Positions 1 to 13,003 of a stretch of DNA of 32,359 nucleotides are shown here, piece by piece; the first letter of the stretch is position 1; every line of letters starts with the position of its first letter. The notes below the pieces were generated by a model that was not told the origin of the DNA, ran no database searches, and saw only the letters and a program-made list of their open reading frames with translations. The stretch spans positions 1-32,359 of the forward strand of contig JAILGP010000075.1 of the NCBI GenBank assembly GCA_024696635.1. The letters are read 5' to 3'. The stretch comes from Eubacterium sp. Its GTDB lineage: Bacteria > Bacillota > Clostridia > Lachnospirales > Lachnospiraceae. The position numbers and the translations under genes were made by a program.

Positions 1-278
1 TGCATTTTATTACTTTTATATCGTTTTACAAATCAGTATTTTAGTCTATAAATTTTTATTTTACAGTAATAATATGAATTCTTCTACAAAAATTATGATA
101 TACATATCAAATGTAACTATGATAAATCAAGACTTGTCTCAAGTAATGAATCACCATGGTCCATAACAAATAATGTCCTGGTACTTTGGCTAAAGAATAT
201 AAAAAACAGAAAAATATAATAAAAAACACTAAAATTGTAATTAAATGTAAAGTATTGAAAGCATTTATTAAAAATATA
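1..278. other. AT-rich upstream region without a recognisable gene
   Basis: This is very AT-rich DNA between the window edge and the oadB-like promoter. I see no reading frame with a ribosome binding site, no tRNA and no convincing terminator hairpin. It probably holds the rest of the upstream regulatory region of the sodium-pump genes. Confidence 0.5.
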
Positions 279-287
279 TGTTACAAT
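279..287 (+). promoter_or_regulatory. Extended -10 promoter of the oadB-like gene
   Basis: TGTTACAAT at 279-287 is an extended -10 element (TG, one base, then TACAAT). It lies about 30 nt before the start codon. The best -35-like match, TTGAAA at 255-260, is 21 nt away, which is too far, so the extended -10 is probably the main determinant. An AAAGGGGG ribosome binding site follows at 303-310. Confidence 0.5.
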
Positions 288-317
288 ATATAGCACTAAT
301 TTAAAGGGGGAACTAAA

Positions 318-1451
318 ATGGGAGTATTTTCAGCACTCTTTTCCAATGTTCTTAATCTTGATTATAAGCAAATTATTATGTGGTTAATTGGAGGAATCCT
401 TATATACCTTGCTATCAAGAAAAAGATGGAACCAACATTACTGCTTCCCATAGGTTTTGGTGCCATTCTGGTAAACCTTCCTATGTCCGGAGCTATAACT
501 CAGAAAATAGGTGATATTGTTCAAGAGGGACCTATATCAATTCTTTTTGAAAGTGGTATAGCAAACGAACTTTTTCCACTCCTGCTTTTCGTAGGAATTG
601 GAGCAATGATTGATTTTGGTCCGCTTCTTTCTAATCCAAAGCTTATGATATTTGGAGCCGCTGCTCAGTTCGGTATATTCTTTACACTGAGCCTTGCTTC
701 ACTCTTTGGATTTGAGCTTCGTGATGCAGCATCAATTGCTATTATAGGTGCAGCCGATGGACCAACATCTATCTTCGTAGCCAACTATTTTGGTACTAAG
801 TATATCGGAGCAATCATAGTTGCAGCATATTCATATATGGCACTTGTTCCTATAGTACAGCCACCAATTATTAAGCTTCTTACCACCAAAAAGGAACGCC
901 AGATTAAGATGGAATATAATCCGGGAAATGTATCTCAGACTACAAAGATATTATTCCCAATATTTGTTACAATCCTCACTGGAATCGTAGCTCCAAATGC
1001 AGTTGCACTTATTGGTTTCCTTATGTTTGGTAACCTTATAAGGGAATGTGGTGTTTTGGAATCTCTTTCCAAATCAGCCCAGTCAGAGCTTGCAAACCTG
1101 GTAACATTATTCCTTGGAATTACAATAGCAGAAAAAATGCAGGCCGATGCTTTCCTTAATCCACAGACAATACTTATTCTTGTATTAGGACTTGTAGCAT
1201 TCATTTTCGATACAGCAGGTGGTGTAATATTTGCAAAAATCATTAATATTTTTGCTAAGAAAAAGATCAATCCTATGATCGGAGCAGCAGGAATATCCGC
1301 TTTCCCAATGTCTTCAAGAGTTGTACATAAGCTTGGACTTGAGGAAGATCCTACAAACTTCCTGCTCACTCATACAATCGGTATAAATGTATCTGGTCAG
1401 ATAGCTTCCGTTATTGCCGGAGGTCTTATCCTTAACCTGATACCTAGATAG
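318..1451 (+). CDS. oadB: Sodium-ion-translocating decarboxylase beta subunit (OadB/GcdB/MmdB family)
   Basis: A 377-residue, very hydrophobic protein that matches the OadB family over its full length. Family hallmarks seen are an N-terminal helix pair, a GIGAMIDFGP segment near residue 95, a GAADGPT motif near residue 144 and a GINVSGQIAS segment near residue 355. In known systems this subunit couples decarboxylation of a carboxybiotin carrier (oxaloacetate, methylmalonyl-CoA or glutaconyl-CoA) to Na+ export across the membrane. The start follows a strong AAAGGGGG site. The next gene begins 11 nt after the stop, and its AGGAGG overlaps this stop codon. No alpha subunit or biotin carrier is in the window, so the decarboxylase substrate cannot be assigned. 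Family assignment is firm; the exact enzyme is unknown. Confidence 0.9.
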   Translation: MGVFSALFSNVLNLDYKQIIMWLIGGILIYLAIKKKMEPTLLLPIGFGAILVNLPMSGAITQKIGDIVQEGPISILFESGIANELFPLLLFVGIGAMIDFGPLLSNPKLMIFGAAAQFGIFFTLSLASLFGFELRDAASIAIIGAADGPTSIFVANYFGTKYIGAIIVAAYSYMALVPIVQPPIIKLLTTKKERQIKMEYNPGNVSQTTKILFPIFVTILTGIVAPNAVALIGFLMFGNLIRECGVLESLSKSAQSELANLVTLFLGITIAEKMQADAFLNPQTILILVLGLVAFIFDTAGGVIFAKIINIFAKKKINPMIGAAGISAFPMSSRVVHKLGLEEDPTNFLLTHTIGINVSGQIASVIAGGLILNLIPR

Positions 1452-1462
1452 GAGGTCTTACC

Positions 1463-1762
1463 ATGAAAATTGACTTAAATGCATTTATGGATTCACTCCC
1501 AATCATGGGCGTAGGACTCTTGGGAATATTCATAGTAACCTTAGTTATCATTATCGGTATCTATATCTTAAAAGCCCTTACATCAAGAAGTGCTGATTCT
1601 GAAGCATCAGATAATAAGGAAAAGGATATAGAAGAAAAATACAATGAAATAGATAATAAATCCGATATGAAAAAAGAATCCGCTATGGATCTTATGAAAG
1701 AAAAAGAGAAAAAGGATTTCCTTAAAGAGGAAGAAAATAATTTTATTTCTCAGGATTTTTAA
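1463..1762 (+). CDS. OadG-like gamma subunit of the Na+-pump decarboxylase
   Basis: A 99-residue protein with one membrane helix (about residues 14-38: MGVGLLGIFIVTLVIIIGIY) followed by a highly charged Lys/Glu-rich cytoplasmic tail. This is the layout of OadG subunits, which anchor the carboxyltransferase to the beta subunit. Sequence similarity in this family is low, so the call rests on topology plus position directly after the OadB-like gene. Translation is probably coupled: AGGAGG at 1450-1455 overlaps the oadB stop TAG. The gene ends just before a bidirectional terminator. A generic single-pass membrane protein cannot be fully excluded. Confidence 0.7.
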   Translation: MKIDLNAFMDSLPIMGVGLLGIFIVTLVIIIGIYILKALTSRSADSEASDNKEKDIEEKYNEIDNKSDMKKESAMDLMKEKEKKDFLKEEENNFISQDF

Positions 1763-1793
1763 ACTATTGGAATTTTCTATTTATATGAATCTT

Positions 1794-1819
1794 GATTATT
1801 AATTATGATTATTAATTAT
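1794..1819. repeat. 13-bp perfect tandem duplication
   Basis: GATTATTAATTAT occurs twice back to back between the oadG-like stop and the terminator. It is probably a slippage product, with no evident function. Confidence 0.7.
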
Positions 1820-1831
1820 GATTTAAAATAT

Positions 1832-1866
1832 AAAAAAACGCAGACCATTTTGATCTGCGTTTTTTA
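1832..1866. terminator. Bidirectional intrinsic terminator between convergent genes
   Basis: CGCAGA (1839-1844) pairs with TCTGCG (1854-1859). An A-run on the left (1832-1838) and a T-run on the right (1860-1865) extend the stem and make it work in both directions. It serves the oadB/oadG-like pair on the plus strand and the hybrid kinase on the minus strand. Confidence 0.85.
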
Positions 1867-1923
1867 TATGTAATCATAAACCTCAATCTACCAAATCAAT
1901 ACTCATGATATAATAATCATTAT

Positions 1924-4803
1924 TTAATCACTAACCTTAATTACTTTACCAAGCATGTTACATATATCAATGTAATCATTAATAAAAGAATCTGCATTTG
2001 CATAAATAAAATCTGTATTCATATCCTTGGCAGCAAATTCATGTTCCTTTGCTCTTTGGCTGAAGTCCTTAAGTCCAATGGTTGCCATGGAACTCTTAAT
2101 TGAATGGGAATCTATCTGATAAGCCTTAATATCCTTTTCTTCAAGGCTCTTTCTCATTCTGTCTACACGGTCCTGACACTCTTTTACTAAATCACCCAGG
2201 ATTTCCTCAAGCAGTTCCTCGTCTCCACCACAATGTGTAAGAGCTGTACTATAATCAAGTCCCTCTATCGAAGAAAGTCTGTCCTTTATAGATTTATTTT
2301 TATCATAGACTTGTCCGCCTGAAATACTATCTATCTGTCCAGCCTTATCATAAGCTTTTTCACCTGTATTACTATCTATTGGAGAATATGATTGGGCAGA
2401 TGCTTTACCAGGCGACCTAGAAGACGAATTTGCAGATGCTTTTGTATCTGCTTCTTTTTCCAGGAGTTTAAGCATTTCCTCTCCCTCAATCACCTTAGTC
2501 TTAGGAAGCATATTTTTCACAACCTCCTCAAGAACCTTTGAATCCAGAGGTTTAGTAAGATAATCATCAAAGCCCTCATCTATATAAAGCTGTCTGCTTC
2601 CAGCCACTGCATTTGCTGTAAGTACAATAGCCTTGGTATCCTTATTAAGTGAATCAGGTTCTTTTCTGATTATGTGAAGACTTTCTATACCATCCGGTTC
2701 CGGCATCATATGGTCCATAAGAATAAGATCATATTTATTCCTTTTACAGAATTCTATAGCACTCTTTCCTGTACTACAAAGATCCGGAACTATTTTATTT
2801 TTCTTAAGGAATAGCTTAACAATTGTAAGATTGGACTGGTTATCATCAACCGCAAGAATCCTGGCATCAGGAGCTATGAAGCTGCAGGTATCAGCATATT
2901 CCGCCTTGCTTATCCTCTTATCCATAAAGTCCTTACCAAGAGCTGTCTTATTCTTATAGGTTACCGGAAGCTTAACCCAGAACTCTGAACCGATTCCGTA
3001 TTGGCTTTCAACTCCCAGCTCACCATTCATTGAAGCGACTATGCTCTTTACTATGGCAAGACCAAGTCCTGTTCCTTCAATACTTGCATTTGACTTAATA
3101 TCCGCTCTTGAAAATGCCTCGAAAAGACCTTCCTGATCTTCCTCAGGAATTCCCTTTCCTGTATCCTTAACAGCAAGCTTTAAGGTATATCCATCCTCTG
3201 TATACTCTCCATCTACCTTTAGGATAATCTGTCCTTTTTCCGTATATTTAACAGCATTATTAAGGAAGTTAATAAGAATCTGTCTTATCCTGAATTCATC
3301 ACTAAAGATTTGATCAGGTACATCCTCACCTATAATAGTATCCAGCCTTAAGTCCTTCTCCTCTGCCCTTTCCTTAATAAGGGAAATGACATCATACAGC
3401 ATATCTGACATAAGAAAATCAGTATTATTTATTTCCAGTTTACCTGCTTCAATCTTGGTAAAATCAAGTACATCATTTACCAGCATAAGGAGCATTTTAC
3501 CTGAAGATTTAATAGTTTTGGAGTATTCCTCTATTGTCTTATCATCATTTTCCCTAAGTATCATCTCATTCATTCCAAGAATGGAATTAATAGGTGTCCT
3601 TATCTCATGAGACATACTTGCCAGAAACTTGGTTTTAGCCTCGGATATATCAATGGCATGCTGTTTTTCCATATTTATCTTCCTAAGGTCATGAACCTGC
3701 TGGACAACAATAAATGTAAGAAGGAAGGCAAGCCCTACAACCATAAGAATTGTATCCTTCATGAAGGCAAACTCAAATATAACATTTATCAGCTCAATCA
3801 GACAGCCCACAAGAAATCCAAGGAAACCTATAAATGTATAATGATAGGAAACTGTATTTCCACGCAGGGCATCTATGATCAGAATGGCTATACCCGCTAC
3901 TGACAAAATCACCAGAACTGCGTTAGCCTCATTAAGTACATTGTAGAAGGGCAATATACCTGTAAAATGAAGTATAGGCCAAACCAGAACGTTGAGTATG
4001 GATATGATAAGTGTAACAATTTTAAATTTTTTATAACGTCCTCTTTGTATGGAAAATAGATATATGGCAAGTCCCAGAGGAATTATAAGGCAAAACATAA
4101 AGCTAAGGAGGCCATTCACATGATTCACTCCAAATACAAATGGGAATAAAAATGAATCCGTTATAAGCCAGGCTGCTATGGAAAATATTCCCAGTGCGCC
4201 GTACATCATATCTATTCTTTGCTTCATTATTATTCTGAGAACAATACTTACAACAAAGGATACAAATGAAAATATGAGAACTATAAAGGCAAGAACGAAG
4301 GAAACTCCGCTTGTTTTCAGAAGATAATTCATTGCCCCTGACCGGGTACTGATGAATACCTCTGGGATATCCTTATCAAAGTCCAGAACTGATTTTCTTT
4401 CTATTACAATCTGACAGCCAGAATCTCCTTCTTCAAGAGGAACCGAAAATAAAAATCTTTTAAATGAACCACCTGGCACATTAATATCTCTTTCTGAAAT
4501 AAAATCTTTTCTGAACTGACCATTTATATAAACTATAGCATCCCTACGTGTATCAAAATAAAGATATTCTCTTCCCTTTATATTCTTTGGAAGGGTGGCT
4601 TTTATGGTTTGATCACCATTTTCTCCATAAGAGACCTCCCAATTTCCTACAAACTGAACAGGCTCACTTTCTATGGGATCACTTTTATTAATCAGGCCAT
4701 AATACACAAAAATAAAGGCATTAAAAATAAGCACAAAAAAGAGCAGCAGCTTTACTGCCCCAATGCTTATCTCATATAGCCCTTTACCCTTTTTCTCCTT
4801 CAT
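1924..4803 (-). CDS. Hybrid sensor histidine kinase with 7TM sensor, receiver and HPt domains
   Basis: The start is taken at the ATG at 4803, preceded by AGGAAGGG (959 residues); an in-frame ATG at 4848 has no good ribosome binding site. Order of domains: an N-terminal helix (about 12-35), an extracytoplasmic beta-rich domain (about 40-160), six further helices (about 165-375) resembling the 7TMR-DISM layout, a HisKA domain with His399 in the MSHEIRTP motif, a HATPase domain with N and G boxes (NFLNNAVKYT, GTGLGLAIVK), a receiver with Asp697 in LILMDHMMP, a polar Ser/Gly/Asp-rich linker, and an HPt domain with His900 in DSHSIKSSM. It therefore carries a complete His-Asp-His relay but no output domain, so the final response regulator must be elsewhere. 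The ligand is unknown. It ends at a terminator shared with the oad genes and follows its own upstream terminator. Confidence 0.9.
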   Translation of the reverse strand: MKEKKGKGLYEISIGAVKLLLFFVLIFNAFIFVYYGLINKSDPIESEPVQFVGNWEVSYGENGDQTIKATLPKNIKGREYLYFDTRRDAIVYINGQFRKDFISERDINVPGGSFKRFLFSVPLEEGDSGCQIVIERKSVLDFDKDIPEVFISTRSGAMNYLLKTSGVSFVLAFIVLIFSFVSFVVSIVLRIIMKQRIDMMYGALGIFSIAAWLITDSFLFPFVFGVNHVNGLLSFMFCLIIPLGLAIYLFSIQRGRYKKFKIVTLIISILNVLVWPILHFTGILPFYNVLNEANAVLVILSVAGIAILIIDALRGNTVSYHYTFIGFLGFLVGCLIELINVIFEFAFMKDTILMVVGLAFLLTFIVVQQVHDLRKINMEKQHAIDISEAKTKFLASMSHEIRTPINSILGMNEMILRENDDKTIEEYSKTIKSSGKMLLMLVNDVLDFTKIEAGKLEINNTDFLMSDMLYDVISLIKERAEEKDLRLDTIIGEDVPDQIFSDEFRIRQILINFLNNAVKYTEKGQIILKVDGEYTEDGYTLKLAVKDTGKGIPEEDQEGLFEAFSRADIKSNASIEGTGLGLAIVKSIVASMNGELGVESQYGIGSEFWVKLPVTYKNKTALGKDFMDKRISKAEYADTCSFIAPDARILAVDDNQSNLTIVKLFLKKNKIVPDLCSTGKSAIEFCKRNKYDLILMDHMMPEPDGIESLHIIRKEPDSLNKDTKAIVLTANAVAGSRQLYIDEGFDDYLTKPLDSKVLEEVVKNMLPKTKVIEGEEMLKLLEKEADTKASANSSSRSPGKASAQSYSPIDSNTGEKAYDKAGQIDSISGGQVYDKNKSIKDRLSSIEGLDYSTALTHCGGDEELLEEILGDLVKECQDRVDRMRKSLEEKDIKAYQIDSHSIKSSMATIGLKDFSQRAKEHEFAAKDMNTDFIYANADSFINDYIDICNMLGKVIKVSD

Positions 4804-4921
4804 ATAAATACCCTTCCTATACTGGAAATTTATGAACATAAAGAGCACAAATCCCCACTTTAAACCCTAAATATTTTAATATTATATCATAATAGGATTG
4901 GGCTTTATATACATTTTTATT

Positions 4922-4957
4922 ACAAAAATGAGCCCGCTTTATTGGCAGGCTCATAAA
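4922..4957 (-). terminator. Intrinsic terminator after the SBP-permease gene
   Basis: On the minus strand a nine-pair stem (4929-4937 with 4945-4953, one G-U pair, loop CAATAAA) is followed by TTTTT (4928-4924). It lies between the permease-fusion stop (4964) and the hybrid-kinase start (4803), so the kinase is probably transcribed from its own promoter in the remaining ~120 nt. Confidence 0.75.
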
Positions 4958-4963
4958 AGTATA

Positions 4964-6703
4964 TCATCTATCAGGTCTGAAAATATGAGTGATCAGCTTG
5001 ATAATTATTATATAAAGAAGTGTTGTTGCAATAAGAGGCATCACAGTTTCAAGACTTTCAAGTCTTATTTTATCAAAGGTCTTAACCATATCCTGGACTG
5101 CAACATATCCAACTACGGCTGAAGTCTTAATCAGTGTCACTAAATCATCTCTAAAGTCCTCTAAGATATCATTTCCACAGGCCTTAAAGAGTCTTTTTAC
5201 AAATCCTATATCATCATAGTATTCAAGTCTGTAATCCTCTGCGATTTTTCCCTCTTCGACTCTCCTTGAGTTTTTGTCTATATTTTTATAGCACATTATG
5301 GCAAAATCAAGAGTAAAGCCTGTAACTGAGGCTATAATTCCTCCCACCGCAAATCTTTTATAAAATGCATAATAAACAATTATTATAAGCATAACTGCGG
5401 GAATGCCATGAAGCAACCATACAATCACCTTGGATATGATCTGATTTACCAGATATCCTCTCTTGGATCCCTTATAAAGAAGGAAACCCAGGGGAGCCCC
5501 CAGAAGAACTGAACAAAAGCTTATAGCCAGTGTCATCAGAAGACCCTTAAGGAGCTGGACATATCTTCTTTCTTCAACAAATGATTTTGTGAAATGTCTT
5601 ATAAAACGGGTTATTCCCTTGGCTGACTTGTCAACCTCATCGCTTGCATTTAAACCTAATTTAACCGCATCCAGACTATCAGGATTTAGAATACAAATAG
5701 CCGCTCCCCCTGAATAAATTGATTTACCAAAATAAAGTGACTCTGCCCTTTCCTCAGTTATGGTTATTCCGCCACAGGCCATATCATATTTTTCTTTTGA
5801 TACGCCTTTAAGCATCTTGGAAAATTCCTTCATTTCGTAGGAAACCTTATAATCATACTCCTGACAGAATCCATTGATTATATCTATCTCATATCCCACA
5901 GGTTTTCCTGCAGACAGGTAGGCAAATGGAATACTTTCTCCGTCATGAATTGCCAGCTTTATAACTTTTGAGGAGTCTTTATCTTTTGAATTATCCTTTT
6001 CTTGGGAATCTTCTTCTTGGGAATCTTCTGAAATCAGAGGCAGGTCCTGACTTTTCTTATTATCCGTTCTGTTTCCAAACCATTTTTCGTCAAGGGCTTC
6101 AAGAGAACCATCAGACTTAAGCTTATCTACATATTCATCAAATTCTTTACGTAGCTTGTCGCCTTCTTCATTTTTAGGAAATATAAATGAATAGTCAGAT
6201 GCTTCTAAGTATTCATCAACCATTATAAATAAATCTGTGGACCTCATCATGGATCTTATTATTGCATCATCATCCACCACCGCATCAACCTTGCCATGGG
6301 TCAGGGCCTTGAAGGTATCCTCTCTTGAATCATAATATTTTATATCCGCCTCAGGCAGATGTTCCTTAATCATATGGTCAAAAACATATCCCTTTACAAC
6401 GCCTATTTTAATGTCCTTATTATTAAATTCATCTATATCTAATGATTCTAATGATTCTGATTCTGGTGTTTCTGATTCTAATGATTCTGATCCTGAAGCT
6501 TCTGATTCTAATGATTCTGATTCCGGCGCTTCTGATTCCGGCGCTTCTGATTCAAAAGTTACTGTATTGGACTTGGCATTAACCCCAGACTTTCCTATAT
6601 AACTACCTGTAAATCTTCCTATAAGTATTCCTGCAAACAGTCCTATAAGGCAGATGACAAGACACCTATATAAGGAAGATTTTTTTAATCCTTTAAAACG
6701 CAT
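4964..6703 (-). CDS. Fused amino-acid-type substrate-binding (lobes in swapped order) and ABC permease protein
   Basis: 579 residues from the ATG at 6703; a GTG at 6706 is only one base from the AAGGTGGAG site, so ATG is preferred. Order seen: membrane anchor (about 13-35), Ser/Glu/Pro repeat linker (51-90), a segment matching the second lobe and closing helix of SBP_bac_3 proteins (93-211, ending DEKWFGN), an acidic linker (214-245), a segment matching the first lobe (246-340, with ITITEERAE carrying the usual Arg, here Arg319), and a HisM/GlnP-type permease (380-573). The second lobe precedes the first, which is a circular permutation. The usual amino-acid-binding Arg and Asp (VDAVVDDD) are both present. 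The EAA loop that contacts the ATPase is weakly conserved, and no ATPase gene is adjacent. It could import a polar amino acid or act as a sensor. The start overlaps the upstream stop (TGATG), indicating translational coupling. Confidence 0.75.
   Translation of the reverse strand: MRFKGLKKSSLYRCLVICLIGLFAGILIGRFTGSYIGKSGVNAKSNTVTFESEAPESEAPESESLESEASGSESLESETPESESLESLDIDEFNNKDIKIGVVKGYVFDHMIKEHLPEADIKYYDSREDTFKALTHGKVDAVVDDDAIIRSMMRSTDLFIMVDEYLEASDYSFIFPKNEEGDKLRKEFDEYVDKLKSDGSLEALDEKWFGNRTDNKKSQDLPLISEDSQEEDSQEKDNSKDKDSSKVIKLAIHDGESIPFAYLSAGKPVGYEIDIINGFCQEYDYKVSYEMKEFSKMLKGVSKEKYDMACGGITITEERAESLYFGKSIYSGGAAICILNPDSLDAVKLGLNASDEVDKSAKGITRFIRHFTKSFVEERRYVQLLKGLLMTLAISFCSVLLGAPLGFLLYKGSKRGYLVNQIISKVIVWLLHGIPAVMLIIIVYYAFYKRFAVGGIIASVTGFTLDFAIMCYKNIDKNSRRVEEGKIAEDYRLEYYDDIGFVKRLFKACGNDILEDFRDDLVTLIKTSAVVGYVAVQDMVKTFDKIRLESLETVMPLIATTLLYIIIIKLITHIFRPDR
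6435..6555 (-). repeat. Degenerate tandem repeats encoding a Ser/Glu-rich linker
   Basis: Repeats built on GATTCTAATGATTCTGATTC (plus strand) encode the ESEAPESE/ESLESE linker (about residues 51-88) of the SBP-permease protein. Unit lengths are multiples of three, so changes in copy number would keep the frame. The linker joins the membrane anchor to the extracytoplasmic domain. Confidence 0.7.
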
Positions 6704-8022
6704 CACTCTCCACCTTTCTCGCCTGCACAGGCTTGCTCTATCTCATCTGCATATGCAGCCCTATCAAATGAAAGTGTAAAATAGTTATCACAATATGGAT
6801 CATATGGGACTTCATAAAATCTAAGCCATGCATAACAGGCATCTACCACGGTTGGTGCATTTCTAAGCTTATTATCCAGGGCTTTAAAATCATCGCTTTT
6901 AAGCAGATATATTATGTAATAAGCCTGCATTTCCGGGTCTGCTATATTGAATCTGTAATCCTCTCCTCTTCCTCCAGGCGAAAACCATTGCTCTGCGTAC
7001 TGGTAAAGCTCCTCCTTTTTAACATAGGCAGTATACTGAGCATATCCATAGCCACCGTCCACATTTACCCATTGATAATAATCATTATAATAACCATTTG
7101 TAATCTCATGGGTTCTGGCTTCAAGGAAATCCTTTTTACTTATATCTCCACTATTTACACTGTCCGTATAAGACTGGTCATCCACAGACCACATCTCATT
7201 ATTGTAGTCCTCCAGATTACAGGCCTTGAATTTTGATTCTGCCCTAAGATTACACATTATACCAAGTACAGGAATTGTGTTGTTATCATAATATTCCATC
7301 AAGGTATTCCATAAGCGCTTCTGCTCATTAGTTCCGTCAGGATCAGAATAATGCTTTTCAGGTTTAAGAGTTTCTACCTTTTCATAGTTTGTATATTGAG
7401 TATAGGCTGCATCTGTTGGGCTTGCCTCCTGAGTCTTCTCTCTATCGCTATTGCTGTGTAGAACATTTGCTACAATAATAAAAAGGATCATAAGACATAC
7501 AAGACCAATGGCTATGGTTATTGCATTTCTTTTTCCAATCAGGTTATTAGGATCATTTTTAGCTTTCTTCAGGCGGTTTTCCAGAATAATCCGACGGTCA
7601 TGTTCACGTTTCTTTGCCTTTTCTTCATATGCTTTTCTCTTTTTTTCAATATCCTTTTTATGGTTTTCCCGTATTTTATCCTGCTTCTTTCTTGCGCTTG
7701 ATATCCTGTCATCTGTCTTCCTTGTCATATCACGAAGCTTTTCTTCTTTTTCCTCTTCACCCTTAACTATCTTTTCCTCTATAGTCTGGCGGTGATCACG
7801 GATTCTCTTATCTGTTTTTTCTCTTCCCCTTCTAAGGATTTCCTCATCCAGCTTTCTAAGAGAATCCAATCTGTCATCATTTTTTTCCAGAAACTTTTCC
7901 CGCCTTTTAATTTCAGCTTCCAGTTTCTCCATGTTCTTCTTATATGACATTTCAGCCTTCTCTATATGAGGGCTGTTATTTTGTTTATTTTTATCTTTGG
8001 GATTATTCTTTGAATCTGACAT
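6703..8022 (-). CDS. Membrane-anchored protein with extracellular phage-tail-lysozyme-like domain
   Basis: 439 residues. Residues 1-160 are extremely charged (Lys/Glu/Arg) and predicted coiled coil. One membrane helix follows (about 168-190), then a short polar linker and a C-terminal domain (about 230-430) resembling phage tail lysozyme (Phage_lysozyme2): LWNTLMEYYDNN, LGIMCNLRAESKF and GGYGYAQYT. Glu262 in NLRAES is the expected catalytic acid. With no signal peptide and basic N-terminal residues, the coiled coil should be cytoplasmic and the lytic domain outside, so it is probably a cell-wall hydrolase held at the membrane and possibly positioned by a cytoplasmic partner. Start supported by AAGGTG seven nt upstream. 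The stop overlaps the next start (TGATG). It is a single cellular gene with no phage genes around it. Domain match is recognised by eye; activity is inferred. Confidence 0.75.
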   Translation of the reverse strand: MSDSKNNPKDKNKQNNSPHIEKAEMSYKKNMEKLEAEIKRREKFLEKNDDRLDSLRKLDEEILRRGREKTDKRIRDHRQTIEEKIVKGEEEKEEKLRDMTRKTDDRISSARKKQDKIRENHKKDIEKKRKAYEEKAKKREHDRRIILENRLKKAKNDPNNLIGKRNAITIAIGLVCLMILFIIVANVLHSNSDREKTQEASPTDAAYTQYTNYEKVETLKPEKHYSDPDGTNEQKRLWNTLMEYYDNNTIPVLGIMCNLRAESKFKACNLEDYNNEMWSVDDQSYTDSVNSGDISKKDFLEARTHEITNGYYNDYYQWVNVDGGYGYAQYTAYVKKEELYQYAEQWFSPGGRGEDYRFNIADPEMQAYYIIYLLKSDDFKALDNKLRNAPTVVDACYAWLRFYEVPYDPYCDNYFTLSFDRAAYADEIEQACAGEKGGE

Positions 8023-8212
8023 GCAGTCACCTTCTTGATATTATTAATTGATGTATATGAATTAGGCCCTTGATTTAGTTTTTTATACTCTATTTCAAGA
8101 ATCTCCACAGGAGCAACCTCTGATATATCAATAACTATTTTATTCTAACATAATTATCCAAGGTATTCTCATAATTTTTAATATTATTTAAAATATGTGA
8201 AGGAATAAGAAA
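8023..8212. other. Intergenic gap before the lysozyme-like gene
   Basis: 190 nt between the LtaS-like stop and the lysozyme-like start. It carries the AAGGTG ribosome binding site of the latter. I see no clear terminator hairpin and no convincing -35/-10 pair, so read-through from upstream is possible. Confidence 0.4.
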
Positions 8213-10429
8213 TCAGTCTAAATCCTCAAGTTTTTTTATGTAACTATAATAATTTAGCTCACATATTGCGTCCGCAAGTCTGAATCGATTGGATACAAGG
8301 GATTTTTTTTGATCCAGTTCTGTGTCGCTTACCTGGTATCTGCCATTATCACTTATCTGTCTAAAGCTAGCATCGTACTTATAATTCTCTGTTATAAAGC
8401 TTCCATCTTCCATAATAACAAATCCCGGCTCATCAGATAATATGTCTCTTCCTACCATCATTCTAGAATCATATTCCAGCCCCATAAGATTGAGCACTGT
8501 AGGAAGTATATCAAGTGAATAACAAGGTTTATCCACCCTGGCTGTTTTTTCCATGGATGCACTATATATAATAAGTGTATTTTTATACCTTTCAAACCTA
8601 TCCATGGTGGTACCCCTAAGATCATTCAAAATATCCATATCATTATAAGGAACATGGTCACCACATATTACTATAAGAGTATTATCTGCTATGCCCTTAG
8701 CCTCCAGATCCATATTCAATGCCTCCACCATATATTCAAATTCCAGCTGGCAGGCTATATAGGCCTTAGTTGATTCCTTGTAAGGAAGGTCCATTACCTT
8801 ATCTCTGTTTTTCTGAGACATAGCATTTCCACTGAAATTGTAATTCAAATGTCCACTAACCGTCAGATAATATATGTGAAATGGACTCTCTCCACTATAT
8901 TCATCAAATGTATTCTCTTCCATAAAAAGGTCCGACTGAGGCCATAATTTATTCCCATTTTCACCCTTTTCACATTCAAGTCCATTTCCTATTCCATAAT
9001 AATTTTCATAGCCAAGATAGGGTCTGGAAATGTTCCTGTTGTAGTATGTATATTCATTATTATGATATGCTGCTACATAATACCCCTCTTCCTTAAGCTC
9101 ATTTCCTAGACAAAATGGCATATAGTTACCCTGATAGCCAATCTTTTCCATACTTAGATATCCACCACTTTTAGGCATATTTCCGGTAAGATTGGCGTAT
9201 TCTCCACCAAGTGTTGAACCATACCAAAGTGGTGTATAGAAATTGGTAAAATAGAATCCCTCCTGACTCATCCTGTAAAGCTCAGGAGTAATCTCCCTGT
9301 CAATCACATATCCATCAAAGCCCTCGGCAACTATAAATATAAGGTTATAGCCTTCAAACATCCCGGTGTAATCATTGGTATAGGTAGGCTGGGTAGAAGT
9401 AATATATTTGGTAAGCTCAATAACTGAGCTATTATCAGTGACCTCTGACATCCTGGAAAGATCTATATCCAGCTTTTGCGGGGTATAAGCCTTCATTTCT
9501 TCAGTAGTTTCACTATCAGGAGTTTCATCCTCATCCCCGGCTTCTGCGTCATTCTCAGCATTATTATTTACACCAGAACCCTCTTCACCATCTAAACTAT
9601 TTGTATCAGAACTATTTGTATCAGAACTGGTATTCCCATCCTGGTCTTGGATTAATTGTTCTTCCCCATAATCATTTATATTATCAGCCCTCTCATCCAG
9701 ATCGAATTCACCCATTTCAAAATCTGTATCAGAACTATTCTCTCCTTCAGAATTCCTCTCAAATATCATATACTTACCATCCCTGATAAAAGTCTCCATA
9801 AGACCCAGCTTTTGGACTGAAAGATTGACTGAGGAATAATTTTTTATAAGGTCCACAGGAGAATTTTTATTATCCCCCTGCATATTAAAAAGTAGAACTA
9901 GATATACTATTCCACAAATAAAAATTGAAACATTTACCATATACATTTCCCATTTATGAAGGGAATAATCTACCCAGAATATACATAAGAAAACTACAAA
10001 TGCATATAAGAGAATAATCAGGATAAACGGAATAATCTCCTGGCCTATACCCTTAATAATGGTTTCCTTAAAGTCAAAGGCCTGGTTAGCCAGCCTTCCT
10101 GTAGCTGAAACCGACCAGTAGTTCTTAAATACACTACTGTAAATCAGCTGAATTAGTGCATATATAGCAAACATGATTGAAAAAATTATTGATATAATCT
10201 TACCAGCCTTTTTAGGTAATAAGGAAATGATAATTCCCAGGAAGAAGCCAGCCAGAGCTGAAAAAAAGCATTTATTTAATATATAATAAATATCAAATTT
10301 AAACTTAAATAATGAAAAAACAAGCTCCGTAAGAGCAAGAAAAACAGCAAAGAATCCCTCCGGACTCCTAGCTGCTTTTTCAATTCTTCCATATTCTGTT
10401 TTATATCCTTGTTTGATAATATTTGTCAT
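8213..10429 (-). CDS. LtaS-like sulfatase-superfamily membrane enzyme
   Basis: 738 residues from the ATG at 10429. An in-frame ATG at 10543 lacks a ribosome binding site and would read through two palindromic repeats, so it is less likely. Five N-terminal helices (to about residue 190) are followed by a strongly acidic Asp/Glu/Ser/Asn linker (about 225-320) and an extracellular sulfatase-fold domain. Seen are the metal-binding Glu369 (IVAEGFDG), a candidate nucleophile Thr406 (WYGSTLGGEYA), SGHLNY and the metal-binding GDHVPYND. LtaS-family enzymes transfer glycerol-phosphate from phosphatidylglycerol onto wall polymers; some relatives transfer phosphoethanolamine or act on other glycans, so the substrate is not certain. 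It lies 100 nt after the GHKL kinase on the same strand and may be co-transcribed. The ribosome binding site (GGTGA) is weak. Confidence 0.82.
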   Translation of the reverse strand: MTNIIKQGYKTEYGRIEKAARSPEGFFAVFLALTELVFSLFKFKFDIYYILNKCFFSALAGFFLGIIISLLPKKAGKIISIIFSIMFAIYALIQLIYSSVFKNYWSVSATGRLANQAFDFKETIIKGIGQEIIPFILIILLYAFVVFLCIFWVDYSLHKWEMYMVNVSIFICGIVYLVLLFNMQGDNKNSPVDLIKNYSSVNLSVQKLGLMETFIRDGKYMIFERNSEGENSSDTDFEMGEFDLDERADNINDYGEEQLIQDQDGNTSSDTNSSDTNSLDGEEGSGVNNNAENDAEAGDEDETPDSETTEEMKAYTPQKLDIDLSRMSEVTDNSSVIELTKYITSTQPTYTNDYTGMFEGYNLIFIVAEGFDGYVIDREITPELYRMSQEGFYFTNFYTPLWYGSTLGGEYANLTGNMPKSGGYLSMEKIGYQGNYMPFCLGNELKEEGYYVAAYHNNEYTYYNRNISRPYLGYENYYGIGNGLECEKGENGNKLWPQSDLFMEENTFDEYSGESPFHIYYLTVSGHLNYNFSGNAMSQKNRDKVMDLPYKESTKAYIACQLEFEYMVEALNMDLEAKGIADNTLIVICGDHVPYNDMDILNDLRGTTMDRFERYKNTLIIYSASMEKTARVDKPCYSLDILPTVLNLMGLEYDSRMMVGRDILSDEPGFVIMEDGSFITENYKYDASFRQISDNGRYQVSDTELDQKKSLVSNRFRLADAICELNYYSYIKKLEDLD

Positions 10430-10440
10430 AATTATATCAC

Positions 10441-10477
10441 CAAATTTGCCAAAGGGGTCAGACCCTTTTGGTAAAAT
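10441..10477. repeat. Palindromic repeat, copy 1
   Basis: A 37-bp element with a near-palindromic core, GCCAAAGGGGTC AGA CCCTTTTGGT. It is identical to the copy at 10492-10528, 51 bp away. It lies just after the GHKL kinase stop and just before the preferred LtaS-like start. In RNA it would form a stable hairpin with a three-base loop. Confidence 0.85.
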
Positions 10478-10491
10478 CAATTGCGTACAAT

Positions 10492-10528
10492 CAAATTTGC
10501 CAAAGGGGTCAGACCCTTTTGGTAAAAT
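10492..10528. repeat. Palindromic repeat, copy 2
   Basis: Identical in all 37 bp to the copy at 10441-10477, with a 14-bp spacer between them. It starts two bases beyond the GHKL kinase stop codon. Read in the minus frame of the LtaS-like gene, each copy encodes LPKGSDPFGK. Confidence 0.85.
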
Positions 10529-10529
10529 T

Positions 10530-11834
10530 TTAGATAACAACATTTGCTATGAAATGCCCATTTTCAATTCTATTGACGTAAACTCCATCATACCTTGAAA
10601 CCACATCTCTGACACTAACTGTTCCAAGTCCGTGATTAATTTTATCTTTTTTGGTGGTAACAAGAATTCCGGTAGAAGGTATTTCCTTAAGAATAGTTTC
10701 GTTTTTTATGTAAATACCAAGTTTATCACCTATATTTTTAACCTTTACATAAATAACTTTATCCTTCGCATCTATTTTTTCACAGGCTTCCATAGAATTT
10801 CTAATAAGGTTATAGAAAATTGTACAAAGGTCAAATTCTTTTATATCTTCCCTTACATTGCAGAAGCCATCGAATTCAAACTTAATTCCTATATTCTTCA
10901 TTTGTTGTACCTGATCATTAATTACTGAATCTACAGCGTTATTACCAACGTATTTATAGGCTACAAGGGAATTGGTTTTCTCTTCCATATCAGACAAATA
11001 TTGCAAAATTTTATCATCAGCATTTTCATTTGCATACTCTCTAAGAGCCACAATATGCCCTCTTATATCATGCCTGATTTTCCTTATTTCATTATAATTC
11101 TTAAGAAGCTCCTCAAAATATTTTTCCTGGGTTTCCAGCATATATTTATAACTGTTTTCCTTACGTTTTAAGGTTTCATTTTTCCTCATAACGTATCCCT
11201 GCCAGAATATGATAGCTACAAAAATAATATGCATTATTATAAATGCAGCACCCATAACAATATAAAATTTGTTCGAAATAGTATTTCCTCTTGCCATTGC
11301 ATTAATTGGAGGAACTATAATTAATATTCCTATACCAAATATAATAATTACAACCAGCTGCCAGGGATATAAAGAAAAATTTGATTTCTTTTTTATCAAT
11401 ATATTAACTATGATATGATATATAAATGGAATCAAAAGTCCAATCATTCTAGATACTATTGAATGAGTTGATTCATACATACCAGCTCCATTATAAGAGC
11501 CATCCATTATAGTCGCAACTTGTTCGAATAAACCGATTCCAATGTCCATAATTATCCATGATGCTATAACAGATAAAATGCGCATATAATATTTTATTTT
11601 TTTATCCATTACAAAAATCAGCAGTAAGGCACAAATATTTGGCATTAGCTTATAAATATTATAATAATCCACAAAAGCATAACAAAATAAACATATTCCA
11701 AGTGAAATCACAAGCCATATCGGAACTATAATTTTATTTTTTTTAATAGGAATAGAAAAGATGACTGTAATACATAATATGTAACTTAACAAATCAATCA
11801 GACTATTTCCCCCCACCCATAAATAATCTCTCAT
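10530..11834 (-). CDS. GHKL-type sensor histidine kinase, AgrC-like
   Basis: 434 residues: six or seven N-terminal membrane helices (to about residue 215), a coiled linker, a dimerisation helix with the phospho-acceptor His255 (IRKIRHDIRGH), and a HATPase_c_5-type ATPase domain with N-box NLIRNSMEAC and a glycine box near HGLGTVSV. This is the architecture of AgrC/ComD kinases, which sense peptide pheromones. The start overlaps the LytTR regulator stop by four bases (ATGA) and is preceded by GAGGA, so the two are translationally coupled and form a cognate pair. The likely ligand, by context, is the product of the small reading frame at 12844-12969. The family assignment is firm; the ligand is inference. 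Confidence 0.9.
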   Translation of the reverse strand: MRDYLWVGGNSLIDLLSYILCITVIFSIPIKKNKIIVPIWLVISLGICLFCYAFVDYYNIYKLMPNICALLLIFVMDKKIKYYMRILSVIASWIIMDIGIGLFEQVATIMDGSYNGAGMYESTHSIVSRMIGLLIPFIYHIIVNILIKKKSNFSLYPWQLVVIIIFGIGILIIVPPINAMARGNTISNKFYIVMGAAFIIMHIIFVAIIFWQGYVMRKNETLKRKENSYKYMLETQEKYFEELLKNYNEIRKIRHDIRGHIVALREYANENADDKILQYLSDMEEKTNSLVAYKYVGNNAVDSVINDQVQQMKNIGIKFEFDGFCNVREDIKEFDLCTIFYNLIRNSMEACEKIDAKDKVIYVKVKNIGDKLGIYIKNETILKEIPSTGILVTTKKDKINHGLGTVSVRDVVSRYDGVYVNRIENGHFIANVVI

Positions 11835-12553
11835 GAATTCAATTCCTCAATCAAATACCTCTGATATTCTTTTTTTAACGTTGCTAAATAACTTCTTCCT
11901 ATAGGAAATACAGTATCATTTTTTAAAAAAACTTGAGTAGAACTAATTTTCTTAACATAACCAAGATTTATAATATATGATTTATGAATCCTGACAAATG
12001 GGTTGCCATTTACCTGTTCTGCACATTTCTTTAATGTACATGTAATTGTTCTCTCTTCCTTATTTGTAATTAAGATTATATAATTAGAGACTGCTTTAAT
12101 GTATATAATATCAGATTTTCTAAATAAATTATTAGAATCCATATCTGAAAATTCTATAAAAGAATCAGAAAGCATTTTATTATATAATTCTCCAAGCTTT
12201 TTATATATTTTATCCTTATCCAAAGGCTTTACCATAAATCCAATGGGTTTATATCCAAAGGCATCTTCAATCAATTCTACATGACAGGATATAAATATAA
12301 TTCTGTGAATATTAGGCATTGACTCAATACGTTTCATAGTTTCAATACCATTAATTCCACCCATCTCAATATCCAGAAAGAGCAAATCTATATCTTTTTC
12401 ATTTTCATTTAATATATCTTCTCCAGAATAGTATGAGGTAAACTCGTATTCCACACCTATTTCCTGAAAAAAATCATTACAATAAGATTCTATCAGTTCA
12501 TGATAACTATGATCGTCATCACATACAGCAATACTTATCAGTTCAGAATCCAT
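11831..12553 (-). CDS. LytTR-family response regulator, AgrA-like
   Basis: 240 residues: a receiver domain (1-125) with acidic pocket Asp12-14, phospho-acceptor Asp61 (LLFLDIEMGG) and a Lys in MVKPLD, then a LytTR DNA-binding domain (about 140-236) with the typical ISYIKAVSNY-like start (IIYIKAVSNY) and FVRIHKSYIIN segment. Regulators of this family bind pairs of short direct repeats spaced about two helical turns apart, often just upstream of -35 elements. The 20-bp tandem repeat at 12724-12763 is the obvious candidate target. Start supported by AAAGGAAG eight nt upstream. It is the first gene of the minus-strand run and overlaps the GHKL kinase. Confidence 0.93.
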   Translation of the reverse strand: MDSELISIAVCDDDHSYHELIESYCNDFFQEIGVEYEFTSYYSGEDILNENEKDIDLLFLDIEMGGINGIETMKRIESMPNIHRIIFISCHVELIEDAFGYKPIGFMVKPLDKDKIYKKLGELYNKMLSDSFIEFSDMDSNNLFRKSDIIYIKAVSNYIILITNKEERTITCTLKKCAEQVNGNPFVRIHKSYIINLGYVKKISSTQVFLKNDTVFPIGRSYLATLKKEYQRYLIEELNS

Positions 12554-12723: not shown

Positions 12724-12763
12724 CATGTCGTTTACTAAATAATCATGTCGTTCACTAAATAAC
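12724..12763 (+). promoter_or_regulatory. Tandem 20-bp direct repeat, candidate LytTR binding sites
   Basis: CATGTCGTTTACTAAATAAT (12724-12743) is followed without a gap by CATGTCGTTCACTAAATAAC (12744-12763), 18 of 20 bases identical. The 20-bp period is about two helical turns and the core CGTTNA partly matches the LytTR half-site consensus. The second repeat ends three bases before the candidate -35 element, as in AgrA-activated promoters. The position, divergent from a LytTR regulator gene, supports the assignment; binding is inferred. Confidence 0.7.
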
Positions 12764-12765
12764 TA

Positions 12766-12794
12766 TTACATTTTTTTTAGTTTTAATGTAAAAT
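12766..12794 (+). promoter_or_regulatory. Candidate activator-dependent promoter of the peptide-like gene
   Basis: -35 TTACAT (12766-12771) and -10 TAAAAT (12789-12794) are separated by 17 nt. The poor -35 fits a promoter that needs an activator. Transcription would start near 12801, which makes an ATG at 12808 nearly leaderless but leaves the strong ribosome binding site at 12827-12836 well inside the mRNA. Confidence 0.55.
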
Positions 12795-12843
12795 ATGGGC
12801 CAATTTTATGCGAACAAGTTTTAAACAAAGGAGGGGAAAAAAG

Positions 12844-12969
12844 ATACTTTATAATATACTTAACTGGATATTAAATACTGGGGATAGACCTTATTGTCAG
12901 TTAATTATATCCAATCCGTTAAACAAACAAAAAAGACTTAACAAACAAAGCAAAGCGTTTCAAAGTTAA
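12844..12969 (+). CDS. Candidate AgrD-like autoinducer precursor (41 codons, ATA start)
   Basis: A short frame directly after AAAGGAGGGG (12827-12836). The only open frame at the right distance begins with ATA at 12844, a very rare start codon; no ATG, GTG or TTG is near. An in-frame ATG at 12808 would give 53 residues but lies upstream of the ribosome binding site. The product has an amphipathic N-terminal helix (LYNILNWILN), then GDRPYCQLII, then a Pro-containing basic tail. RPY-C-QLII matches the geometry of AgrD peptides, where the Cys closes a five-residue thiolactone ring with the last hydrophobic residue. The tail is basic, whereas classic AgrD tails are acidic. The last codons overlap the terminator stem. 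No AgrB is in the window. It could be a functional pheromone, a precursor inactivated by loss of its start codon, or a chance frame. Confidence 0.5.
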   Translation: MLYNILNWILNTGDRPYCQLIISNPLNKQKRLNKQSKAFQS

Positions 12970-12978
12970 GTCTTTTTT
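12929..12978. terminator. Bidirectional terminator with 14-bp stem
   Basis: AAAAAAGACTTAAC (12929-12942) pairs perfectly with GTTAAGTCTTTTTT (12965-12978) around a 22-nt loop. It ends the peptide-like transcript on the plus strand and the xylanase transcript on the minus strand. It overlaps the 3' end of the peptide-like frame. Confidence 0.85.
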
Positions 12979-13003
12979 GCCAAAAGGGACCCCTTTGGTA
13001 AAT
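12978..13003. repeat. Palindromic repeat, diverged copy 3
   Basis: TTGCCAAAAGGGACCCCTTTGGTAAAT is a shortened version of the elements at 10441-10477 and 10492-10528. It has the same GCCAAA and TTTGGTAAA ends but only a single base, A, in place of the tip loop. It again touches the 3' end of a minus-strand gene, here the xylanase stop. Confidence 0.65.

Follow-up and report, generated by a model that had tools for sequence, protein, structure and literature searches.

Tiny reading frames opposite a GHKL kinase/LytTR regulator pair in Lachnospiraceae: a candidate family of leaderless peptide signals with an apparently damaged copy in one Eubacterium locus

In three-component bacteriocin regulation, of which PlnA-PlnB, ComC/ComD/ComE and BlpC are examples, the known inducers are made as precursors with double-glycine leaders, which are cut by C39 exporters. 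For many of the GHKL/LytTR receptors in Firmicutes, to our knowledge, no signal has been recognised. Most known peptide-pheromone receptors, AgrC, ComD and PlnB included, are HPK10 kinases, according to the excerpted text of PMC4873836. A different layout is described for streptococci, where the tiny pheromone precursors of the SHP type are secreted by PptAB and have cytosolic receptors, and where ComS of S. mutans has 17 aa and a DWW stretch (both from an excerpt of PMC5167397); a streptococcal Rgg pheromone sORF carries a WXW motif (PMC9426450, likewise in excerpt). For the rumen, a bacteriocin paper names Eubacterium ruminantium for lanthipeptides, and its excerpted text contains no pheromone or LytTR system (PMC13289728).

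Here we describe a family of candidate signals, one of them in Eubacterium ruminantium FB3002, recognised from their place, their promoter boxes and a short core, together with a copy that has apparently lost its start.

A small transcription unit divergent from a kinase/regulator pair

The window, by which we mean the whole stretch of DNA analysed (32,359 nucleotides), encodes a kinase and a regulator on one strand and, divergent from both, the open frame under study on the other. Positions 12725-12979 make up a small transcription unit composed of boxes, a −10-like element, a ribosome-binding site, an open frame and a terminator. The features are as follows:

10530..11834, reverse strand: GHKL-domain histidine kinase, full length, 434 aa; GHKL match (HATPase_c_5) over cut-off
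11831..12553, reverse strand: LytTR response regulator, full length, 240 aa; Response_reg and LytTR matches over cut-off
12725..12762, forward strand: pair of LytTR-type direct-repeat boxes, ATGTCGTT(T/C)ACTAAATAA, at 12725 and 12745, their starts 20 bp apart
12789..12794, forward strand: −10-like TAAAAT, aligned with TATAAT/TATACT of relatives
12808..12810, forward strand: in-frame upstream ATG, which would give 53 aa
12827-12836, forward strand: ribosome-binding site AAAGGAGGGG, aligned with GGAGG-type sites of same-genus relatives
12841..12888, forward strand: region homologous, by DNA alignment, to the tiny peptide genes of relatives
12889..12969, forward strand: run-on beyond the point at which 14 of 15 relatives stop
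12928..12979, forward strand: intrinsic terminator hairpin with an A-rich and a T-rich arm; the end of the frame lies inside it

The first-pass annotation had read this unit as an overlooked AgrD-like peptide gene with an ATA start, placed behind a LytTR-type promoter and opposite a GHKL/LytTR pair. Much of that anatomy is real: the ribosome-binding site, the direct-repeat boxes of the promoter, the upstream ATG with its 53 aa and the opposing pair are all present, as is the frame of 41 codons counted from the ATA at 12844-12846 and open until the TAA at 12967-12969. Codons from 12844 read ILYNILNWILNTGDR, those after the ATA giving ILYNILNWIL, in which the core found in relatives is kept as NILNWI. 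The transcript would be expected to start near 12801, judging from the −10-like element; a consensus promoter scan found three promoters against a mean of 2.5 in shuffles, no better than chance. The terminator folds at −17.9 kcal/mol (12926-12985), and the consensus terminator scan reported none at the locus, probably owing to its loop limit.

At its two ends, the frame departs from its relatives. An alignment of DNA from six loci places the AAG at 12841-12843 in the column that holds their ATG, so that the window's ATA is the second codon and the relatives start one codon upstream of it; to L013 the window aligns across the ribosome-binding site and the core. The AAG comes from one assembly of one genome, in which an assembly error is possible. 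Three options for the start had been proposed earlier: a rare ATA, the ATG at 12808 or a freshly inactivated gene. It is the last that the AAG in the ATG column favours, the start being lost or nearly so, while the ATG at 12808 is unlikely to serve because the ribosome-binding site lies inside the frame that it opens. At the other end, the frame runs past the usual stop, and its last codons are the arm and loop of the terminator hairpin. We therefore read the stretch as a copy of a tiny-peptide family whose start is apparently damaged. Deviation of both start and stop, with the core kept, suggests a recent loss of the signal gene with the receiver left intact; indeed, no damage is apparent in the window's kinase, regulator, boxes or ribosome-binding site.

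Palindromic repeats of the type CCAAAGGGGTCAGACCCTTTTGG flank the peptide/kinase/regulator cassette at both ends (10449-10471, 10500-10522 and 12980-12998 of the window), and similar stretches lie elsewhere in the genome (L003, L004, L006-L008).

Tiny reading frames in the same slot of related loci

The regulator was searched in 61 genomes, and a profile of the kinase in 61 genomes of the window's genus, seven of which hold close kinase orthologues (E < 1e-149), making eight loci with the window. Among the named copies are one of Eubacterium ruminantium FB3002 and others of rumen and abomasum MAGs, the group to which the window belongs. Nine more loci, from six genomes of a second genus, came from an order-level search (392 genomes) and a search of that genus (79 genomes); at order level at most four candidates per genome were scored among those listed, and absence there is weak. 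The comparison set without the window thus holds 16 loci from 12 genomes and two genera. Excluded from it was L112 (in G352; 801 bases; kinase match on part of the model, 6.6e-63), in which neither boxes nor a tiny ORF were found by eye, and left out as well were L051-L057 and L059-L067, with weaker kinase matches, and L073 and L074, at 24-26% identity. At L049 and L050 (kinase E about 1e-49) boxes were not found. Searching plasmids with the kinase yielded 22 records, each below 60% identity.

In all 16 related loci, the regulator matches LytTR and Response_reg and the kinase matches the GHKL domain. Identity to the window kinase, whose N-terminal half is hydrophobic in appearance, is 24-41% in the sensor half and 43-64% in the ATPase part, a variability that fits differing ligands, although sensor domains often vary anyway. 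In the kinase tree, L113, L116 and L118, all with MYQYDILELIFG-type peptides, group together, and the DIWDW-type loci group with L117. The window kinase is sister to that of L011, but its peptide core is closer to that of L013.

The claim of an overlooked peptide gene is borne out by these relatives, since all but one of the 16 loci have, in the divergent slot, an ATG-started ORF of 13-22 codons; the products of these 15 are:

L011, the locus of E. ruminantium FB3002 (also L069): MVFFDFLDLLSWLFS
L012: MIILFNIFEWLRTL
L013: MILCNIFEWLRNRGG
L014: MHRTGYHSFFDYSIFSFLKSLF
L047: MIHCDILDWWRKHGWP
L048: MTRSDIFDWFRENGWP
L110: MMYYYDIWDWISGH
L111: MMYLMDIWDWLSGR
L113: MYQYDILELIFGNSNP
L114: MMYLMDIWDWITGR
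L115: MIYMDIWDWIIRGGN
L116 and L118: MYQYDILELIFGSGNP
L117: MTVMDLYDWIRHL
L119: MKHLMDIWDWISGH

All are 13-16 codons long except that of L014, which has 22 codons and no Cys. A core such as DIWDWI or NIFEWL is common to 14 of the 15; L011 deviates from it in part, and L014 fails the motif, which we wrote as [DN][IFL][FLWY][DEN][WL][LIWF] within a short ATG ORF. This motif occurs in 14 of the 16 related regions, against 4 of 3200 shuffled regions and none of 25 other LytTR-regulator loci, a contrast that serves as a guide and not as a test because the motif was derived from the same sequences. Within the kept residues, synonymous codon changes separate L047 from L048, L111 from L114 and L113 from L116. 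Of the longer window frame, what relatives have kept is limited to roughly the first 16 codons; conservation beside the same pair, which had been proposed as a check on the gene, therefore holds for this part and its core and not for the Cys further on.

In eight of the 15 relatives no in-frame ATG, GTG or TTG precedes the tiny ORF before a stop is reached, which leaves the short form as their product; the other seven have at least one, and L047 has two ATGs, both ahead of its −10-like element. The distance from the purine-rich ribosome-binding site to the ATG is 6-11 bases in ten relatives and 15-18 bases in five, and the latter spacing is far and counts against reading the ORFs as part of a signalling system. 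No double-glycine leader was seen by eye in any of the 15, the few GG pairs being C-terminal (L013, L115).

The remaining locus, L058 (G068:C64:38027-42328), is the second pair of its genome. It keeps the boxes and, by eye, a terminator-like hairpin, while the peptide ORF is absent, and so reads as a second putative receiver without a signal gene.

Past the stop of the tiny ORF and before the terminator-like hairpin, a stretch like GCTATACCYACYCTTTARTC recurs in L012 (2360-2760), L013 (1000-1400) and L047 (3500-3950); it is perhaps an RNA element.

Paired boxes and their putative targets

Box matches in the window number two, against a mean of 0.18 in shuffles, of which 2 in 100 reach two. Paired boxes are found at 13 of the 16 related loci, the pattern being missing from L113, L116 and L118. 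Across the 61 genus genomes there are 34 sites in eight genomes, 33 of them in the seven genomes with the kinase; put by genome, the box pair occurs in 7/7 genomes with the kinase/regulator pair and in 1/54 without it, that one (G004) being 58% complete. A reversed-pattern control gave no match in the seven kinase genomes and four across all 61. The boxes would thus mark a regulon, and this regulator is predicted to bind them.

We inspected 29 of the 33 sites, omitting G068:C105, two overlapping sites of G015:C37 and one G007 site (same promoter). Eight of the 29, those of L058 and the window included, face a kinase/regulator pair. Among the other 21, some targets could be identified: at L084 a mediterrocin-family bacteriocin gene and at L098 a double-glycine bacteriocin signature, both over curated cut-offs, at L095 a peptide whose class II bacteriocin match stays below cut-off, as well as a C39 exporter, a radical SAM enzyme in an E. 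ruminantium cluster (L091), peptides with a double-glycine stretch by eye (L088, L097) and ABC transporter or adaptor genes (L083, L089). For 13 of the 21 non-cassette targets inspected in the window's genus, our reading gives no clear role in bacteriocin production or export.

In the window's own genome, the boxes precede a MacAB-like operon (L120), a gene for a 114-aa secreted protein and a contig end. The 114-aa protein (C184) was considered as a lactococcin 972 and rejected, as it has no family support. In L120 (2318-6324; G000:C147), an HlyD-type adaptor, an ABC ATPase and a permease, assigned by eye, are followed by an acyl-carrier-like protein of 82 aa, and this box-driven operon is a candidate exporter.

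The second genus has eight box sites, seven of which, in six promoters, are at the peptide promoters of cassettes, while the eighth stands before a sugar-phosphate gene. There, the boxes may therefore serve mainly autoinduction, and the link to bacteriocins is limited to the window's genus.

Further arrangements were observed. In L069 of E. ruminantium FB3002 (3-9397), the pair is clustered with a radical SAM enzyme (PF04055), a second radical-SAM-like protein (by eye), ABC parts and a Gly/Ala/Cys-rich peptide of 51 aa (3514-3666) with no family match, a possible RiPP cluster. In L124 (4900-5100; G015:C30:66900), the box pair leads to a hairpin, the only ORF being hairpin DNA, and stands back to back with a single box ahead of a gene cluster for an adenylate ligase and a carrier protein (by eye). 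L100 has boxes, and its only ORF is again hairpin DNA.

A candidate quorum-sensing cassette, its rivals and known systems

We consider it likely that the peptide, kinase and regulator form a three-part quorum-sensing cassette in which the signal is the tiny peptide, made with neither leader nor AgrB. In relatives, the tiny ORF would be transcribed as a short RNA, mostly from the promoter with paired LytTR boxes; once exported, the peptide would be perceived by the GHKL kinase encoded opposite; and the LytTR regulator, in its phosphorylated form, would bind the boxes and so activate the promoter of the peptide itself and, in genomes of the window's genus, some bacteriocin, RiPP-maturation and export genes as well. 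The peptide is best read as the ligand because it is box-driven and lies opposite a receptor of the HPK10-like kind, among which we infer that the kinase counts. The tiny peptides probably act as a density signal that switches on bacteriocin genes. If this reading holds, we are fairly confident that the window strain would make little or no signal and could still listen. More tentatively, and with somewhat greater doubt than belief, we put forward the leaderless peptides of 13-16 aa as a new class of quorum-sensing signal on GHKL/LytTR receptors of Lachnospiraceae, which would drive bacteriocin regulons and on which signal-less listener strains (the window; the second pair of G068) could eavesdrop. 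If true, membrane kinases would have a peptide pheromone that takes neither a leader nor an AgrB step, and some rumen bacteriocin genes would be under a signal that certain strains stopped making but could hear.

Several other explanations have to be weighed. That the frame encodes the precursor of an AgrD-type cyclic autoinducer, started at ATA and with a thiolactone ring in RPY-C-QLII, was the original claim, and it has in its favour a Cys and hydrophobic residues following an amphipathic stretch, next to a GHKL/LytTR pair. We rejected it, and regard it as very improbable. Against the AgrD model TIGR04223 the frame had no match, even with E values as high as 10 allowed; the positive control, a peptide encoded beside AgrB in G007 of the window's genus, scored 2.6e-9, over cut-off. 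Only the NCBIfam model counts here, as Pfam missed even this control. The absence of AgrB noted earlier is confirmed for the window genome (97.23% complete), and among the seven genus genomes with the pair AgrB is absent in three and solely on other contigs in four, in a search that works, given that AgrB was found in 19 of the 61 genus genomes. The proposed ring is moreover outside the conserved part: its Cys codon (12895-12897) lies with the ring residues and the basic tail in the run-on, a part of the frame that 14 of the 15 relatives do not reach. A Cys stands there in none of the 15, those of L013 and L047 being near the N-terminus, at residue 4. The end of the tail, taken before as a feature of the peptide, is terminator DNA. 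Unlikely, if less so, is a translated window copy, read from ATA, AAG or the ATG at 12808 into a longer, altered signal, which would be compatible with the system proposed above. The ribosome-binding site and core residues are kept, 53 codons are open, and seven of the 15 relatives also have some upstream in-frame start. However, AAG and ATA are very poor start codons, the position of the ribosome-binding site speaks against 12808, the run-on reads terminator DNA, and neither the eight relatives that lack an upstream start nor L047, whose two precede its −10-like element, support a longer form.

The remaining rivals concern the family as a whole. The tiny peptide is partly hydrophobic, has neither a leader nor a constantly linked exporter, and in 13 of 16 loci is transcribed from a promoter with the boxes of its system. 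It might stay inside the cell and, embedded in the membrane, exert feedback on the kinase, as MgrB does on PhoQ, instead of being secreted as a pheromone; it is also a weakness of our own reading that no exporter accompanies the cassette at every locus. We think retention in the membrane rather doubtful, as several of the peptides, MTRSDIFDWFRENGWP for example, have charged and polar residues at both ends, in contrast to a membrane span, and as the HPK10 kind, to which this kinase presumably belongs, makes up most of the peptide-pheromone receptors in the excerpt of PMC4873836. Some of the peptides are amphipathic, and bacteriocin-type genes, too, stand behind the boxes in the window's genus, which could make the tiny peptide itself a leaderless bacteriocin or toxin-like product under the system's control; its fixed place opposite the pair in 15 loci of two genera, its retention where no bacteriocin gene is near by eye (L127) and its length, short at 13-16 aa, render this improbable. 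Finally, the short transcript could work as RNA, its ORF being incidental, and here L058, where boxes and a terminator-like hairpin stand without any ORF, and L100, whose only ORF is hairpin DNA, might be cited; with core residues kept despite codon changes and start and stop kept in 15 of 16 loci, we give this very little credence.

A word search of the open-licence literature (titles and the starts of abstracts) found no paper that describes, for this group, a GHKL/LytTR pair with a leaderless signal. The parts are of known kinds, and their combination, a leaderless tiny signal with a GHKL/LytTR pair and without AgrB, is one not met in the literature searched. With agr (AgrB/AgrD/AgrC/AgrA) the locus shares a GHKL kinase and a LytTR regulator adjoining a peptide gene, but here the gene is divergent, its product of 13-22 aa has no AgrD model match and, in relatives, no Cys/Ser ring, and AgrB in the window's genus is absent or on other contigs. 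Three-component bacteriocin systems are alike in their peptide gene, GHKL kinase and LytTR regulator, and in paired boxes before both the peptide gene and bacteriocin-type genes, and unlike in that none of the 15 tiny ORFs has, by eye, a double-glycine leader. The tiny ORFs of SHP/Rgg and ComS/ComR in streptococci come closest in size and place, shp genes being divergent from their regulator, and the DWW stretch of ComS resembles, by eye only, the D-W cores found here (excerpt of PMC5167397). As far as the excerpted source goes, however, those peptides are exported, processed, re-imported and bound by cytosolic Rgg-type regulators, whereas no Rgg/ComR receptor was met beside the peptide in our loci, where in 16 of 16 the neighbours are a LytTR regulator and a GHKL kinase.
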